Origin: Minisyncoccota bacterium
Lineage (GTDB): Bacteria > Patescibacteriota > Minisyncoccia > Phycocordibacterales > Phycocordibacteraceae
Direction of reading: 5' to 3'
Length of the DNA: 35,285 nucleotides
Assembly (NCBI GenBank): GCA_017991635.1
Contig: JAGOQE010000005.1
Location: forward strand, 1 to 35,285
The notes beneath the pieces were generated by a model, which had not been told where the DNA came from, searched no databases, and saw only the letters and a program-made list of their open reading frames with translations. A program made the translations under genes and the position numbers. Shown here one piece after another: positions 14,128 through 19,342 of the stretch (within the stretch, counting starts at the first letter, position 1; each line of letters opens with the position of its first letter).

Positions 14128-16602
14128 ATGGCTAAGAAAGATGTATCAAAGAGTGACGAAGTAGTGCCTATTGGTGGGCGCGTTATTGACCAGTCCATTA
14201 CGAGCGAAATGCGCTCTTCCTATATTGACTACGCGATGACCGTTATTACGGCTCGTGCGCTTCCTGATGTGCGAGACGGCTTGAAGCCTGTGCACCGACG
14301 CATTCTCTACTCTATGCAGGAGAACGGTCTTACCTCAAGCGCAAAGACTAAGAAGTCAGCTGCGGTGGTTGGAGACGTGATTGCAAAATATCATCCGCAC
14401 GGCGACGTGGCTGTCTATGACGCGATGGTGAAGCTCGCTCAGCCTTTTTCTACGCGCTACCCGCTTATCATTGGTCAGGGTAACTTCGGTTCCGTTGATG
14501 GTGATCCGCCTGCAGCCTACAGGTACACCGAGGCAAAGATGTCAAAAGTGGGTGGGGAAATGCTCACTGACTTTGATAAAGAGACCGTTGAGTGGGTACC
14601 TAACTATGACGGCACTAAGAAAGAACCAACAGTCCTACCAGCTGCAGCACCAAACCTTCTATTGAATGGTGCATTGGGTATCGCTGTTGGTATGGCCACC
14701 AACATTCCTCCGCACAACTTGCGAGAGGTGATTGGTGCTACCACGCACCTTATTGATACGCCTGATGCAACCACAGAAGATTTGCTTCAGTACGTGAAGG
14801 GTCCTGACTTCCCTCTTGGCGGTATTGCGTTTAATCAAGCAGACATCAAGCACGCCTACGCAAACGGAAAGGGAGGTGTTGTGGTGCGCGGTGAGGCGGA
14901 AATCGTAGAGGAGAAGAAGGGAACGTCTATCATCATTACGTCTATTCCATATCGCGTGAACAAGGCAGACCTTATTACCCGTATTGCTGATTTGGTACGT
15001 GATAAGAAACTTGAAGGCATTAAGGACCTACGGGACGAATCAACCGATGACATTCGTGTTGTTGTTGAACTTAAGGGTACTGCACATCCGCAGGCCGTTT
15101 TGAACAATCTCTTTAAATACACAGAACTCGAGAGCACCTTCCACTACAACATGCTTGCCCTTGTTGATGGTGTTCCGCAAACACTTTCTTTGAAGGGAAT
15201 GCTCACCGAGTTTATTGCCCACCGCTTGGTAGTGGTAGAGCGCCGTACACGATATGAGTTGCGTAAGGCAGAAGAGCGCGAGCATATTCTCCTTGGACTT
15301 TCTAAGGCACTTGATCACATTGATGAAGTTATTGCCATTATTAAGAAGTCAAAGGATGTGGGCCAAGCCTCACTCGCCCTTCAAAAGACCTTTGGATTTT
15401 CACCAATTCAAGCGCAGGCAATTTTGGACATGCGCCTTCAGAAGCTCGCTGGTCTTGAGCGTCAGAAGATTGAAGACGAGCTCACGGAAGTGCAAGCAAT
15501 CATCAAGCGCTTGAAGGCAATCCTTTCATCAAAGAAAAATATTCTCGATGTCGTTCGCGCTGAGCTTCAGGCTATTAGCGAGAAGTATGGAGACGACCGT
15601 CGCACAAAGATTGTGAAGGGTGGAGTGAAGAATATTTCAGTAGAAGATTTGGTGCCAGATGACGAATCAGTCTTGGTCCTCACCGCAGGCGGATATGTAA
15701 AGCGTACCAACCCTGACGAATACAAGAAACAGAAACGCGGTGGTGTTGGTGTTATTGATATGTCTACAAAAGAAGAGGATGTGGTGACGCACTTTGTGGT
15801 CGCGAGTGCACACGCAGAACTTTTGTTCTTCACTGATTTTGGTAAGGCGTACCAGATAAAGATGTACGAGATTCCAGAAGGAAAGCGCGCAACAAAAGGA
15901 AAGTCCATCATGAACTTCCTTCAGCTGTCAGGTGAAGAGAAGGTCACCTCAGTATTGCCAGTGCCTAAGGGTGCCGAGCGCGATGCGTTGTGTGTAGTTT
16001 TCGTAACGAGTGAAGGAGTAGTGAAGAAGGTTGAGGCAAAGAGTTTTGCTGATGTTCGTCGTTCTGGCATCATCGCAATTAACCTAAAGGGTACTGACAA
16101 ACTTGTCTCAGCAAGTCTCGCTTCAACTGGCGATTCGCTCTCGCTTGTAACTGCGAAGGGTCAGTCGATTCGTTTTGCTGAAGAGGAACTTCGCGCTATG
16201 GGACGTACTGCAGCTGGCGTACGTGGTATGAGTGTCAAAAAGGGAGACCGAATTGTGTCTGCTGAAGTGGTACCTGCAGGAAGTGAATCAACCGCAGCGC
16301 TCCTCGTTGTTATGGATAAGGGATACGGCAAACACACGGCACTCACTGAGTACAAGCTTCAAGGACGAGGTGGTTCAGGTATTAAGACTGCTGAAGTAAC
16401 AGCAAAGACCGGAGAAATTATCGGTGCTGCAGTTCTCTCGGCTGAAGCGTTGGAGGAAGAAGAGATTGTGGTGATTTCAAAGAAGGGTCAGGTTATTCGT
16501 GTCGGTGCACATGAAATTCCATCACTGAGTCGCGCTACGCAGGGAGTGAGGATTATGAAGATGAGGGAGGGGGACTCAATCGCCTCAATGGTTGCTCTGT
16601 AA
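14128..16602 (+). CDS. gyrA: DNA gyrase subunit A
   Basis: 824 residues. The N-terminal quinolone-region block [28 protein letters not shown], the catalytic tyrosine Tyr133 in [12 protein letters not shown], and a coiled-coil DNA gate ([15 protein letters not shown]) are present. The C-terminal half is a six-bladed beta-pinwheel with a GyrA-box-like QKRGGVGV, which supports gyrase rather than topoisomerase IV. With GyrB it introduces negative supercoils using ATP. gyrB is not in the window. Last gene of the MBL unit; a structured RNA element begins at the next base after its stop. Confidence 0.96.
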
Positions 16603-16723
16603 GAGCACACAAAATTCCGCGAATTGCTTCGTTGTGGGCACCCCGCAATTATTTCCACCGTATACATATACGTTTCCAATAATTGCGTACCCACGCCTCG
16701 CACTTCGCGTCTTTTGCGCGCTC
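16603..16723 (+). ncRNA. Structured RNA element, copy 1
   Basis: A 121-nt long hairpin directly after gyrA. Outer arms GAGC/GCTC, CAAAA/TTTTG and CGCGAA/TTCGCG; middle stem GTGGG/CCCAC; inner stem GCAATTATT/AATAATTGC; apex CACCGTATA-CA-TATACGTTT. Copy 2 at 19169-19294 keeps the same architecture, the same apex and the same internal loops (TTYGTT opposite GCCTCG), while the stems differ by paired changes, e.g. GTGGG/CCCAC versus ACGGG/CCCGT. Selection on an RNA (or single-stranded DNA) fold is the simplest reading. No known family recognised; strand is inferred from position. Confidence 0.65.
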
Positions 16724-16776
16724 TATTCCTTGCAGGCGCACTACATACGTATCTGTCGACCGTGGTGTGGTGCGTT

Positions 16777-16804
16777 TTGACTAAGACAGGAATAGGAGTA
16801 TAAC
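16777..16804 (+). promoter_or_regulatory. Class B promoter of paralog 1
   Basis: TTGACT (16777-16782), 16-nt spacer, TATAAC (16799-16804). Confidence 0.75.
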
Positions 16805-16819
16805 GGTACTGGACCTGAG

Positions 16820-16866
16820 TCCCGAGCATTTCGCTCGAGTACCACTGAAACCTCTAAATGGGAGGC
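16820..16866 (+). promoter_or_regulatory. Leader hairpin and Shine-Dalgarno of paralog 1
   Basis: TCCCGAGC-loop-GCTCGAGTAC (core stem 16823-16837) near the 5' end of the message, then GGGAGGC at 16860-16866, 5 nt from the ATG. Nearly the same leader precedes paralog 2. Confidence 0.7.
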
Positions 16867-16870
16867 TTAC

Positions 16871-17407
16871 ATGCCCCAGACCGCTACCACTGAAAAGCCC
16901 GAAATGGCTACCACTGCTTTCAAGCGCGTGGAGGAAGCCATTCTGGCGACCGACGCCACGACCTACAACCCGGACGATCGGACCTACTGCAAACATTACG
17001 TCGTCGCCGGTACCGTCACCAGTGAGTGGCTCCAGAAGCAGATCACCCTCTGGGCGCAATCGATCAAGCGCAAGGATGAACTCGTTGCGCTTCTGCGCGC
17101 TGAAGGTGCCAGCCCGGATCCGGTGAAGGTCGATGAGTACGACGATGTCGCCATGAAGGTGCGCATCCTCAACGATCTGGTCATGGCCGATCTGCGTGCG
17201 ACTTTCCCTGACCTGAAGAAGGCCATGGAAGGTGTCAGTATCGACCGTGCCTGGGTGGTCCGGTACGGCGACCACTCAAGTGTCGAAGATGACGATGATG
17301 TGCCGGACGGCGTTGAGAACATTCTCGAGTCCATCTTCGGCCGTGGCAGTGTACGCGTTGTATTCGCTGGCGGCGGTCGCGGGAAAGACAAGCCTCCGCT
17401 TCAGTAG
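16871..17407 (+). CDS. Class B paralog 1 (unknown), 178 aa
   Basis: A GC-rich gene with C/G-ending codons. It shares with the next gene an N terminus MPQTATTEKPE, a block DATTYNPDDRTYCKHYVVAG (residues ~28-47, conserved D-TTY-P-T-C-HYV-G) and a block WVVRYGDHS (~130). Between them is an alpha-helical region likely to be coiled. The tail is acidic (EDDDDVPDG) and then Gly/Arg/Lys-rich. No signal peptide or membrane helix. Known families were not recognised. It has its own promoter, leader hairpin, GGGAGG site and terminator, so it is a self-contained unit. Confidence 0.75.
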   Translation: MPQTATTEKPEMATTAFKRVEEAILATDATTYNPDDRTYCKHYVVAGTVTSEWLQKQITLWAQSIKRKDELVALLRAEGASPDPVKVDEYDDVAMKVRILNDLVMADLRATFPDLKKAMEGVSIDRAWVVRYGDHSSVEDDDDVPDGVENILESIFGRGSVRVVFAGGGRGKDKPPLQ

Positions 17408-17408
17408 C

Positions 17409-17462
17409 TCACCCGTAAGGTGAGCGATGGCCCGGATTGCGCAAGCAATCCGGGCCATCATT
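17409..17462 (+). terminator. Terminator of paralog 1
   Basis: Small CTCACC/GGTGAG hairpin, then GATGGCCCGGATTGC-GCAA-GCAATCCGGGCCATC (15-bp stem, GNRA loop) and a short T-run that runs into the next -35 box. Confidence 0.85.
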
Positions 17463-17490
17463 TTGACTTTGGCTGGAAAAATGCTATAAC
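17463..17490 (+). promoter_or_regulatory. Class B promoter of paralog 2
   Basis: TTGACT (17463-17468), 16-nt spacer, TATAAC (17485-17490, with TGC in front). Same boxes and spacing as paralog 1. Confidence 0.78.
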
Positions 17491-17505
17491 AGTTTTGGAC
17501 ATGCG

Positions 17506-17552
17506 TCCCGAGCCTTTGCTCGAGTACACCACATCAACTTTTATTGGGAGGC
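17506..17552 (+). promoter_or_regulatory. Leader hairpin and Shine-Dalgarno of paralog 2
   Basis: CGAGC-CTTT-GCTCG (17509-17522) followed by GGGAGGC (17546-17552), 4 nt from the ATG; near-duplicate of the paralog 1 leader. Confidence 0.72.
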
Positions 17553-17556
17553 TTCA

Positions 17557-18243
17557 ATGCCCCAGACTGCCACTTCCAAAAAGCCCGAGACTACAGGTCA
17601 CGTGTCGGTCCTCGCGAAACTCATGCAGAGTCTCGCTGAGGTCGACCTGACGACCTACGCCCCGGAAGAGCCCACCAAGTGCTCGCACTATGTGGAGCTT
17701 GGCGTCGTCGAAAACGATGAGACCCGGCGCATGGTTGCGCTGCGTCTGTCGCTTATCGCGGACTATAACGCCAAGGCCAAGGTCCTCAACGCTGAAGGCA
17801 AGAAGAAGGATGAACAGGACCAGGCGGTGGTTCGCGAGCTTGAAGAGACTGCCTTTTTGGTCGAGACTCTGACTTCGGCCATCAGGTTCGACGTGAATCA
17901 GATGTTCGATCTGAGTGACCTCGACGTTGCTCTCGATTTCGGTCCGGGCTGGGTTCTGTCTTACACCGATCATAGCCCGGAAAACTTCTTCAAGGACCTC
18001 TTCGGCGAAGACGGTCCGTTCGGAAAGATTGGCGAAGGCGGTCTTCCCGAGGGTTTCGAGAAACTCTTCGGGGAACGTCCGTCCAATGCCGGCGATGGAC
18101 TCTTCGGTGCTCTCTTCGGCGAAGCCGATGATGCTCCGAAGGGCGGTCTTCTCGACGCACTCCGGCGCGCCGGTGTCCGGGTCGAAGTGATGCGCTCCGG
18201 CGAACGTCGTCGGCCGAGTATCTTCGACCTTCTTCGTCGCTAG
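17557..18243 (+). CDS. Class B paralog 2 (unknown), 228 aa
   Basis: Starts MPQTATSKKPET and carries the same two shared blocks as paralog 1: DLTTYAPEEPTKCSHYVELG (~50-69) and WVLSYTDHSPENFF (~140). The central region is a charged helix pair. The C-terminal extension absent from paralog 1 has repeated Phe-Gly patches (FKDLFGEDGPFGKIG, FEKLFGERP, LFGALFGEA), then GGLLDALRRAGVRVEVMRSG. No membrane helix or signal peptide. Function unknown. The FG-rich tail could mediate weak multivalent contacts, which is speculation. Own promoter and terminator. Confidence 0.78.
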   Translation: MPQTATSKKPETTGHVSVLAKLMQSLAEVDLTTYAPEEPTKCSHYVELGVVENDETRRMVALRLSLIADYNAKAKVLNAEGKKKDEQDQAVVRELEETAFLVETLTSAIRFDVNQMFDLSDLDVALDFGPGWVLSYTDHSPENFFKDLFGEDGPFGKIGEGGLPEGFEKLFGERPSNAGDGLFGALFGEADDAPKGGLLDALRRAGVRVEVMRSGERRRPSIFDLLRR

Positions 18244-18268
18244 ACCAAGCAGGAAAAGTTGATTTCGC

Positions 18269-18305
18269 CCCCGGAAGCCATAGGTTTCCGGGGGCGTTTT
18301 CTTTT
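18269..18305 (+). terminator. Terminator of paralog 2
   Basis: CGCCCCCGGAAGCC / GGTTTCCGGGGGCG stem with T-run overlapping the next TTGACT box. Confidence 0.85.
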
Positions 18306-18362
18306 GACTGTCCGCACGCTCTATGCGATAACTAAAAGACCCGACACGGAAACGTGCTCGGG
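18304..18362 (+). promoter_or_regulatory. Class B promoter and leader hairpin of the 53-aa gene
   Basis: TTGACT (18304-18309), 17-nt spacer, GATAAC (18327-18332), then leader hairpin CCCGACACG-GAAA-CGTGCTCGGG (18340-18362, one bulge). Confidence 0.65.
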
Positions 18363-18402
18363 ATTTCTGTTTCACCACTGTACCTAGGGGAGAACTTCGG
18401 GC

Positions 18403-18564
18403 ATGGCCGAAGCGAGTAGTATAAATCATCACCACGAGGACGAAATGCAGAGAGAGCGGGAAGATGGGCGGGAATTTGGTGACGTGCTCTTTGCGCGTCC
18501 CAACGAGCCCTCAGGTCTCCTCGCTGCCCTTGCTGGCTACCACGACCTGAATCGTCGCGACTAG
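18403..18564 (+). CDS. Class B small protein, 53 aa
   Basis: Reads MAEASSINHHHEDEMQRERE through FGDVLFARPNEP to LAGYHDLNRRD. Strongly charged N-terminal half (His/Glu/Arg) and a short helix-prone GLLAALAGY near the end. GGGGAG stands about 10 nt before the ATG. It has the class B layout: TTGACT-type promoter, leader hairpin, ribosome-binding site, own terminator. It is directly downstream of paralogs 1 and 2 and may act with them. No family recognised; confidence rests on the expression signals and clean frame. Confidence 0.6.
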   Translation: MAEASSINHHHEDEMQREREDGREFGDVLFARPNEPSGLLAALAGYHDLNRRD

Positions 18565-18588
18565 TTCGTCGCGCATCTTGTGGGACTG

Positions 18589-18617
18589 ACCCCAGACGTC
18601 TTAGACGTCTGGGGTTT
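18589..18617 (+). terminator. Terminator of the 53-aa gene
   Basis: CCCCAGACGTC-TTA-GACGTCTGGGG followed by TTTTC; 9 nt upstream of the next -10 box. Confidence 0.85.
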
Positions 18618-18622
18618 TCACT

Positions 18623-18631
18623 TGCTATACT
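18623..18631 (+). promoter_or_regulatory. Extended -10 promoter of the methyltransferase
   Basis: TTGC-TATACT (box 18626-18631), 6 nt before the ATG at 18638. Confidence 0.68.
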
Positions 18632-18637
18632 TCACGT

Positions 18638-19168
18638 ATGAACTTTTGTGTACCTCGAGAAAATATTTTGCAGTTTGGTCTTCGTGAAGGAATGAAGGTG
18701 GGTGATCTTGGTGCAGGCTCAGGTCACTATGCACTTTCTGCCTCTCCTATTGTTGGACATACTGGAAAGGTGTATGCCGTAGACATTCAAGAAGATGTAC
18801 TTAAGCATATTCGAGAAGAGGCACGAGTGAAGGGACTTTCTAATATTGAAACCATTTGGGGAGACTTGGAGGAGAAAGGAGGAACACGTTTGCGCGACCA
18901 TACCCTAGATGCTGTCATTATTTCAAATACGCTATTTCAGGTGGAGAATCGTGAACGTGTAATTGATGAGATTAAGCGCATCATCCATCCTGGAGGTAAG
19001 GTCCTCGTTATTGATTGGGCAGGGTGTTACGACGGTATTGGCCCTTCAGATGAGCGAGTTATTACGGAGTTTGTTGCCCACGACCTTTTTATTACGGCCG
19101 GTTTTCATAAGGTAAAGGATTTTAGGGCGGGGCCGCATCATTACGCTATAGTCTTCACCGCCCCTTAG
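18638..19168 (+). CDS. Class I SAM-dependent methyltransferase
   Basis: 176 residues. SAM-binding motif I is VGDLGAGSGHYAL, the acidic ribose-binding residue is in VYAVDIQED, motif III/IV is LDAVIISNTLFQVENRE, and PGGKVLVIDWAG follows. Size and layout match the UbiE/Methyltransf_11-type group of small-molecule methyltransferases; the substrate is unknown. Codon usage and the leaderless TATACT start are of the housekeeping class, in contrast to the three class B genes just upstream. A structured RNA element begins right after its stop. Confidence 0.85.
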   Translation: MNFCVPRENILQFGLREGMKVGDLGAGSGHYALSASPIVGHTGKVYAVDIQEDVLKHIREEARVKGLSNIETIWGDLEEKGGTRLRDHTLDAVIISNTLFQVENRERVIDEIKRIIHPGGKVLVIDWAGCYDGIGPSDERVITEFVAHDLFITAGFHKVKDFRAGPHHYAIVFTAP

Positions 19169-19294
19169 TCGCGCTACAAAAAGCACCAGTGTCTTTGTTA
19201 CGGGTCCCACAGATTTCTTTCACCGTATAGCATATACGTTTACAGAAATCTGTCTCCCGTGCCTCGACACTGACACTTTTTGTACACGCGAGTC
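19169..19294 (+). ncRNA. Structured RNA element, copy 2
   Basis: A 126-nt hairpin directly after the methyltransferase stop. Stems: TACAAAAAG/CTTTTTGTA, CAGTGTC/GACACTG, ACGGG/CCCGT, ACAGATTTCT/AGAAATCTGT; apex CACCGTATA-GCA-TATACGTTT. The apex, the TTTGTT internal loop and the opposing GCCTCG match copy 1 at 16603-16723, while the stems are compensated. Both copies begin immediately after a stop codon of a housekeeping gene. No known RNA family recognised. Confidence 0.65.
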
Positions 19295-19342
19295 TATGAA
19301 GATTTGTACACTGTGTAAAAGAGTAATTGTCCTGCACTCAGA

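Follow-up and report, generated by a model that had tools for sequence, protein, structure and literature searches.

Hairpins that begin at stop codons in Patescibacteria genomes are probably copies of a MITE-like mobile DNA element with TA flanks

ERIC, NEMIS (Correia) and RUP are short elements that form hairpins and have terminal repeats, with TA at their ends; ERIC reportedly affects mRNA in an orientation-dependent way (PMC2229807). REPINs and REPs form hairpins of about 100 bp in which compensatory changes are common, lie no more than about 20 bp from the 3' ends of genes, and may provide a TAG stop codon (PMC3116915, PMC3733652). Here, we describe a hairpin family that resembles ERIC, NEMIS and RUP in being an imperfect palindrome of 100-200 bp, intergenic and near genes, such that transcripts would form long hairpins, and, as far as some copies show, in its terminal repeats and TA ends. 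The family differs from these elements in that its stems and outer arms diverge freely while the unpaired strands and the pairing are kept across several phyla, in its strong sense-orientation link to stop codons, and in that no related insertion sequence was found. Like REPINs and REPs, it folds into a hairpin of roughly 100 bp, shows compensatory changes and sits near gene 3' ends. The family is not described in the literature searched, whose coverage left out most subscription papers, and a text search of the literature for the terminal repeat sequence gave no relevant match. Our reading, to which we assign a probability of roughly three in four, is that the two hairpins of the locus studied, elements A and B, are old, diverged copies of a non-autonomous, MITE-like mobile DNA element of about 120-170 bp that inserts at TA.

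The window analyzed is the whole 35,285-nt contig JAGOQE010000005.1 (C7) of a 726-kb genome (G000, assembly GCA_017991635.1), whose relatives are Patescibacteria. An earlier note on this DNA had placed hairpins at 16603-16723 and 19169-19294, each directly after a stop codon, and the sequence confirms both placements, with element A beginning directly 3' of the gyrA stop TAA (16600-16602) and element B directly 3' of the stop TAG (19166-19168) of a methyltransferase gene. With the last base of the stop included, the entire hairpins, both on the plus strand, span 16602-16723 (A, outer arms AGAGCACACAAAA.. / ..TTTTGCGCGCTC plus core) and 19168-19294 (B, outer arms GTCGCGCTACAAAAAG.. / ..CTTTTTGTACACGCGAGTC plus core). 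Element A folds at -46.7 kcal/mol (z -5.5 against dinucleotide shuffles) and element B at -51.8 kcal/mol (z -7.5), and in each case 0 of 200 shuffles folded as well. The apex CACCGTATA..TATACGTTT, which the note had seen in both hairpins, is found twice in the window by pattern search, at 16656-16675 in A (CACCGTATACATATACGTTT) and 19221-19241 in B (CACCGTATAGCATATACGTTT), against an expectation of 0 from shuffles. The shared internal loop, TTYGTT opposite GCCTCG, is likewise present, its conserved unpaired strands being TTCGTT at 16628-16633 and GCCTCG at 16695-16700 in A, and TTTGTT at 19194-19199 and GCCTCG at 19261-19266 in B, and the stems indeed differ yet stay paired (GTGGG/CCCAC in A, ACGGG/CCCGT in B). 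All these features, apex included, lie on the plus strand, as do the cores, which correspond to positions 1-89 of the covariance models R1 and R2 described below and lie at 16620-16708 in A (98.0 bits with R1, 86.6 bits with R2) and 19186-19274 in B (100.1 and 89.1 bits). An Rfam search with both hairpins matched no family even at permissive thresholds, which agrees with the view that they belong to no known RNA class. On the left, each element abuts a TA that is part of the stop itself (16600-16601 within the gyrA TAA, 19166-19167 within the methyltransferase TAG), for A a candidate target site in the light of the TGA avoidance and mirrored TA described below, and on the right a TA follows at 16724-16725 and 19295-19296.

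Between A and B, the region 16780-18600 holds small genes of foreign look, two of which (16871-17407 and 17557-18243) are about 29% identical to each other and have nearly the same leader, CCCGAGC..GCTCGAGTAC, plus GGGAGGCTT before the start. These foreign-looking genes are absent in congeners, where the methyltransferase gene or other, unrelated small genes come next after gyrA. At the gyrA locus of the congener G020 (L100) only the 5' half of the element is left, G035 (L128) carries a diverged element, and at the same spot 3' of gyrA G018 (L104) and G006 (L117) have quite different long hairpins with arms of more than 20 bp. A hairpin behind a stop codon, with copies that sometimes stand as same-strand pairs on either side of foreign-looking genes, this window included, recalls an attC-like site at which gene cassettes recombine. 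Yet the copies follow syntenic core genes, the order gyrA - methyltransferase - solute-binding protein being kept in the genus, and polymorphic sites with resumed homology show no cargo alongside the hairpin, so that we regard such a site as extremely unlikely.

A loose pattern based on the apex found two more copies in the source genome, 3' of a ribonucleotide reductase gene and of a gene encoding a protein of 190 residues, and a single copy 3' of rpmG in another genome (genes named by eye). The covariance model R1 was built from five copies (four from the source genome and the rpmG copy), and R2 from 35 copies. The earlier note had suggested a covariance-model search of related Patescibacteria genomes, and this yielded many further copies, in the same genome and elsewhere. 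The source genome has about 10, with an element of about 125 bp, and R1 matches occur in 99 of 397 genomes of the order, often with at least 10 per genome and with only four same-genus genomes having matches, while R2 finds 17 copies in the complete chromosome of Candidatus Campbellbacteria GW2011_OD1_34_28 (G164; CP011215.1, 752,630 bp) and matches in 36 of 287 genomes across Patescibacteria. A named scan found the family in Campbell-, Kaiser-, Lloyd-, Azam-, Doudna- and Kerfeldbacteria, WWE3 and Saccharibacteria. Copies of the same architecture, with cores of 67-70% G+C, score 63-71 bits in Rokubacteria, and two Clostridia-type bins also carry copies, the host phyla being assigned from MAGs, in which binning errors are possible. 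No DNA similar to the element was found in plasmid and phage collections, and the model did not confirm the one pattern match in viral contigs. In its size (100-200 bp), lack of coding sequence, copy number (10-17 or more per genome) and dispersal the family thus agrees with MITEs, and its distribution is patchy among close relatives. One contig of the source genome (C16, L085) ends within an element copy (16724-16810), and several contigs of another genome, G634, begin beside the terminal repeat of the element; assemblies seem to break at the hairpin, which makes the copy numbers lower bounds. In Campbellbacteria GW2011_OD1_34_28, one copy lies about 250 bp upstream of a 23S rRNA gene that contains a group I intron (L043:6767-7001, minus strand).

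Evidence of mobility comes from a presence/absence comparison of the complete genome G164 with two others, G308 and G085. One species carries the element behind a gene while the orthologous gene in another species lacks it, several such pairs of genes being 90-99% identical; where the flanks align at these polymorphic loci, homology picks up shortly past the element. At loci that the species have in common (EF-Tu, YchF, L7/L12), the elements are quite different from each other, and at L218 unrelated flanks surround two cores that are 99% identical and separated by 400 bp. In G634 and G736, genomes of another family, the hairpin forms the interior of a near-identical, recently amplified unit of 160-173 bp with perfect terminal inverted repeats (GGACTTACGC..GCGTAAGTCC), longer variants of which contain inserts. 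Shared terminal inverted repeats of the MITE kind are therefore seen in these two genomes, whereas the outer arms in the source genome are palindromic inside each copy and different between copies.

A stop codon lies within 30 nt on the 5' side, in sense orientation, in 106 of 140 copies (frames of at least 60 codons), as against a frame end on the 3' side in 16 of 139 and about 5% for random positions in a similar test. The distance from stop to core is mostly 11-21 nt, that is, the base of the hairpin touches the stop codon. The upstream genes are ordinary and often highly expressed, including those for EF-Tu, L2, L7/L12, NusG, SSB, NDK, GyrA, GyrB, FtsZ, SecY and MreB (some named by eye), and downstream genes such as those for S10, L11 and ATP synthase B indicate that some copies sit within operons, for example at nusG-rplK and EF-Tu-rpsJ. 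The exceptions either border an antisense gene at its start codon or fall within 5' leaders. Insertion after RNA genes was rejected, given that the exceptional copies mark antisense start codons and leaders, not RNA gene ends. An unusual intrinsic terminator would suit the gene-end location and the A-tract/T-tract that many copies carry in their outer arms; nevertheless, the normal terminator of the host gene is retained downstream of the element at several polymorphic loci, copies occur inside operons, and the T tract is missing in several copies, and we give this explanation hardly any credence.

TA occurs in TAA and TAG, not in TGA. The stops at the elements are TAA in 75 cases, TAG in 27 and TGA in 4, where 22.9 TGA would be expected from the same genomes, a deficit as deep as which appeared in 0 of 100,000 simulations. 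In a mixed Patescibacteria group, 29 of 53 copies have a mirrored TA, equally far out on the right side, compared with 14.1 ± 3.0 (0 of 2000). This enrichment is weaker in the A+T-rich Campbellbacteria group, is not significant for the nine copies of the source genome alone, and has no counterpart in the Rokubacteria copies, whose right side is without TA. Among the clean units of G634 and G736, TA is found on both sides in 12 of 13, which, with the enrichment elsewhere, may correspond to the fixed TA duplication of MITEs; in relatives of these genomes the flanks are too diverged and no clean empty site, with just one TA, was obtained, so the TA may be the repeat's own end and not a target duplication.

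The earlier note took changes on both arms as a sign of selection for the fold, and part of this stands. In an alignment of 128 copies, two-sided changes occur in 27 of 27 pairs, and 87.7% of cells are paired, compared with 34-53% for slid partners and 57.6% in shuffles, a contrast that is somewhat inflated since the alignment was fitted to the structure; a structure predicted afresh from 35 copies agrees with the fitted one. The further step, from covariation to selection on an RNA fold, is not supported as it stands, as G-U pairs make up 31 of 2969 paired cells in the 128 copies (1.0%), whereas tRNAs of the same genomes have 5.5% and the column composition would predict 14.6%. Given this near-absence, pairing looks maintained at the DNA level (or on both strands), and the scarcity of G-U points to a hairpin used as DNA, or to arm-to-arm copying by template switching, and is not the usual mark of RNA. 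Outside the Campbellbacteria group, 85 of 97 copies have arms that match each other better than 95% of cross-matched arms do. Another small palindrome, CCTGCCTGCCGGCAGGCAGG, is inserted in several element copies and at other places in the same genomes (G164:179629, 445350 and 452310; L145:213; L300). At G164:304760-305182, an ordinary-looking terminator follows a stop codon, and the 5' arm of its stem reaches back through the stop into the coding sequence, as if a palindrome had been lengthened by template switching.

Strong covariation, together with sense orientation directly after the stops of genes such as those for EF-Tu, L2, L7/L12, NusG, SSB, GyrA and GyrB, would be expected of a functional 3'-UTR RNA, a hairpin selected behind highly expressed genes for, e.g., mRNA 3'-end protection or protein binding. 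This we consider improbable, because the near-lack of G-U pairs, presence and absence behind orthologues 90-99% identical, the exceptions at antisense start codons and in 5' leaders, the avoidance of TGA stops, and the near-identical units with terminal repeats all speak against it. Of the three guesses that the earlier note had offered, a mobile hairpin element is the best supported, while an ncRNA or a 3'-UTR regulator as the primary nature of the hairpins is unfit in view of the presence/absence pattern, the near-identical dispersed copies with terminal repeats, and the TA flanks. The sense bias, unexplained by insertion alone, leaves room for a secondary role at the RNA level, such as a 3'-UTR effect.

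The search for a partner enzyme covered three transposase profiles. The Y1/RAYT profile (PF01797) has no match in eight element-rich genomes (G000, G362, G127, G219, G222, G334, G355 and G412), DDE_3 (PF13358, IS630-type) is found in 0 of the 40 genomes tested, the source genome being without it, and DDE_Tnp_1 (PF01609) is absent from most of 40 genomes tested, the source genome included. An autonomous relative such as MITEs have was therefore not seen with these profiles in the source and many element-rich genomes, and among the genes neighboring the copies no transposase family stood out; the genomes may have lost the enzyme or receive it from another source. A REPIN, that is, a REP doublet mobilized by a RAYT (Y1 transposase), would share the long hairpin, the compensatory changes, the position close 3' of genes and the patchy occurrence, and PF01797 is weakly associated with the element (odds ratio 1.6, p 0.056); however, the eight element-rich genomes that lack a Y1 match include the source, a GTAG/CGTC-tagged REP was not recognized, and TA at both ends is not a REPIN feature, which makes this reading very improbable. 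As a tentative and rather unlikely possibility, a mobilizing enzyme without a known transposase domain might read the shape of the hairpin and its conserved unpaired strands in place of a terminal sequence. Recognition by shape would account for divergent stems and terminal repeats alongside pairing and loops that are retained from phylum to phylum.

Under the mobile-element reading, the element is a single long imperfect palindrome whose outer arms would serve as terminal inverted repeats and whose core, inside these arms, carries the conserved unpaired strands, namely TTYGTT opposite GCCTCG and the strands around the apex CACCGTA..TACG. It would be transposed by an enzyme supplied in trans and would insert at a TA dinucleotide, often the TA of a TAA or TAG, the TA flanks then possibly representing a target duplication rather than the repeat end. 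Within a stop, the first base of the element (A or G) would restore the stop codon and leave the gene unharmed, and, as insertion at the stop's TA would spare the gene, copies would gather right behind stops, even in operons or upstream of the gene's own terminator. The stem sequence would then drift with Watson-Crick pairing kept, the hairpin being used as DNA and/or one arm being copied onto the other by template switching; the arms may be corrected against each other in this way, and the upstream mRNA might be affected. Counting against the mobile-element reading, the three profiles (Y1, DDE_3, DDE_Tnp_1) gave no partner, the outer arms in the source genome vary by copy where ordinary MITEs have fixed terminal repeats, and insertion of a near-palindrome does not predict a strong sense orientation.

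A pattern scan also found hairpins in Comamonadaceae (Variovorax, Polaromonas and Rhodoferax; loci L157, L170, L173, L174, L181, L187, L229, L245, L256 and L258) with the same apex, TCACCGTAC..GTACGGTTC, and an ACCTCG strand. They are dispersed and their arms begin near stop codons, but TGA stops look common among them, unlike in the present family, and their lower part differs (CTACTGCG..CCGATCT / CTCGCTACG). A single one of them reaches the covariance model, at 26.6 bits. Judged by these sequence features, the Comamonadaceae hairpins are possibly a sister family or a case of convergence.

With these findings, the small and streamlined Patescibacteria genomes gain a widespread hairpin element, and TA targeting would explain a striking pattern in them, namely long hairpins that start at stop codons. 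For RNA discovery they carry a caution, as DNA elements can yield strong covariation in intergenic hairpins, and the G-U deficit offers a cheap test for hairpins that belong to DNA elements. If the mobilizing enzyme lies outside the known transposases, a new enzyme awaits discovery.
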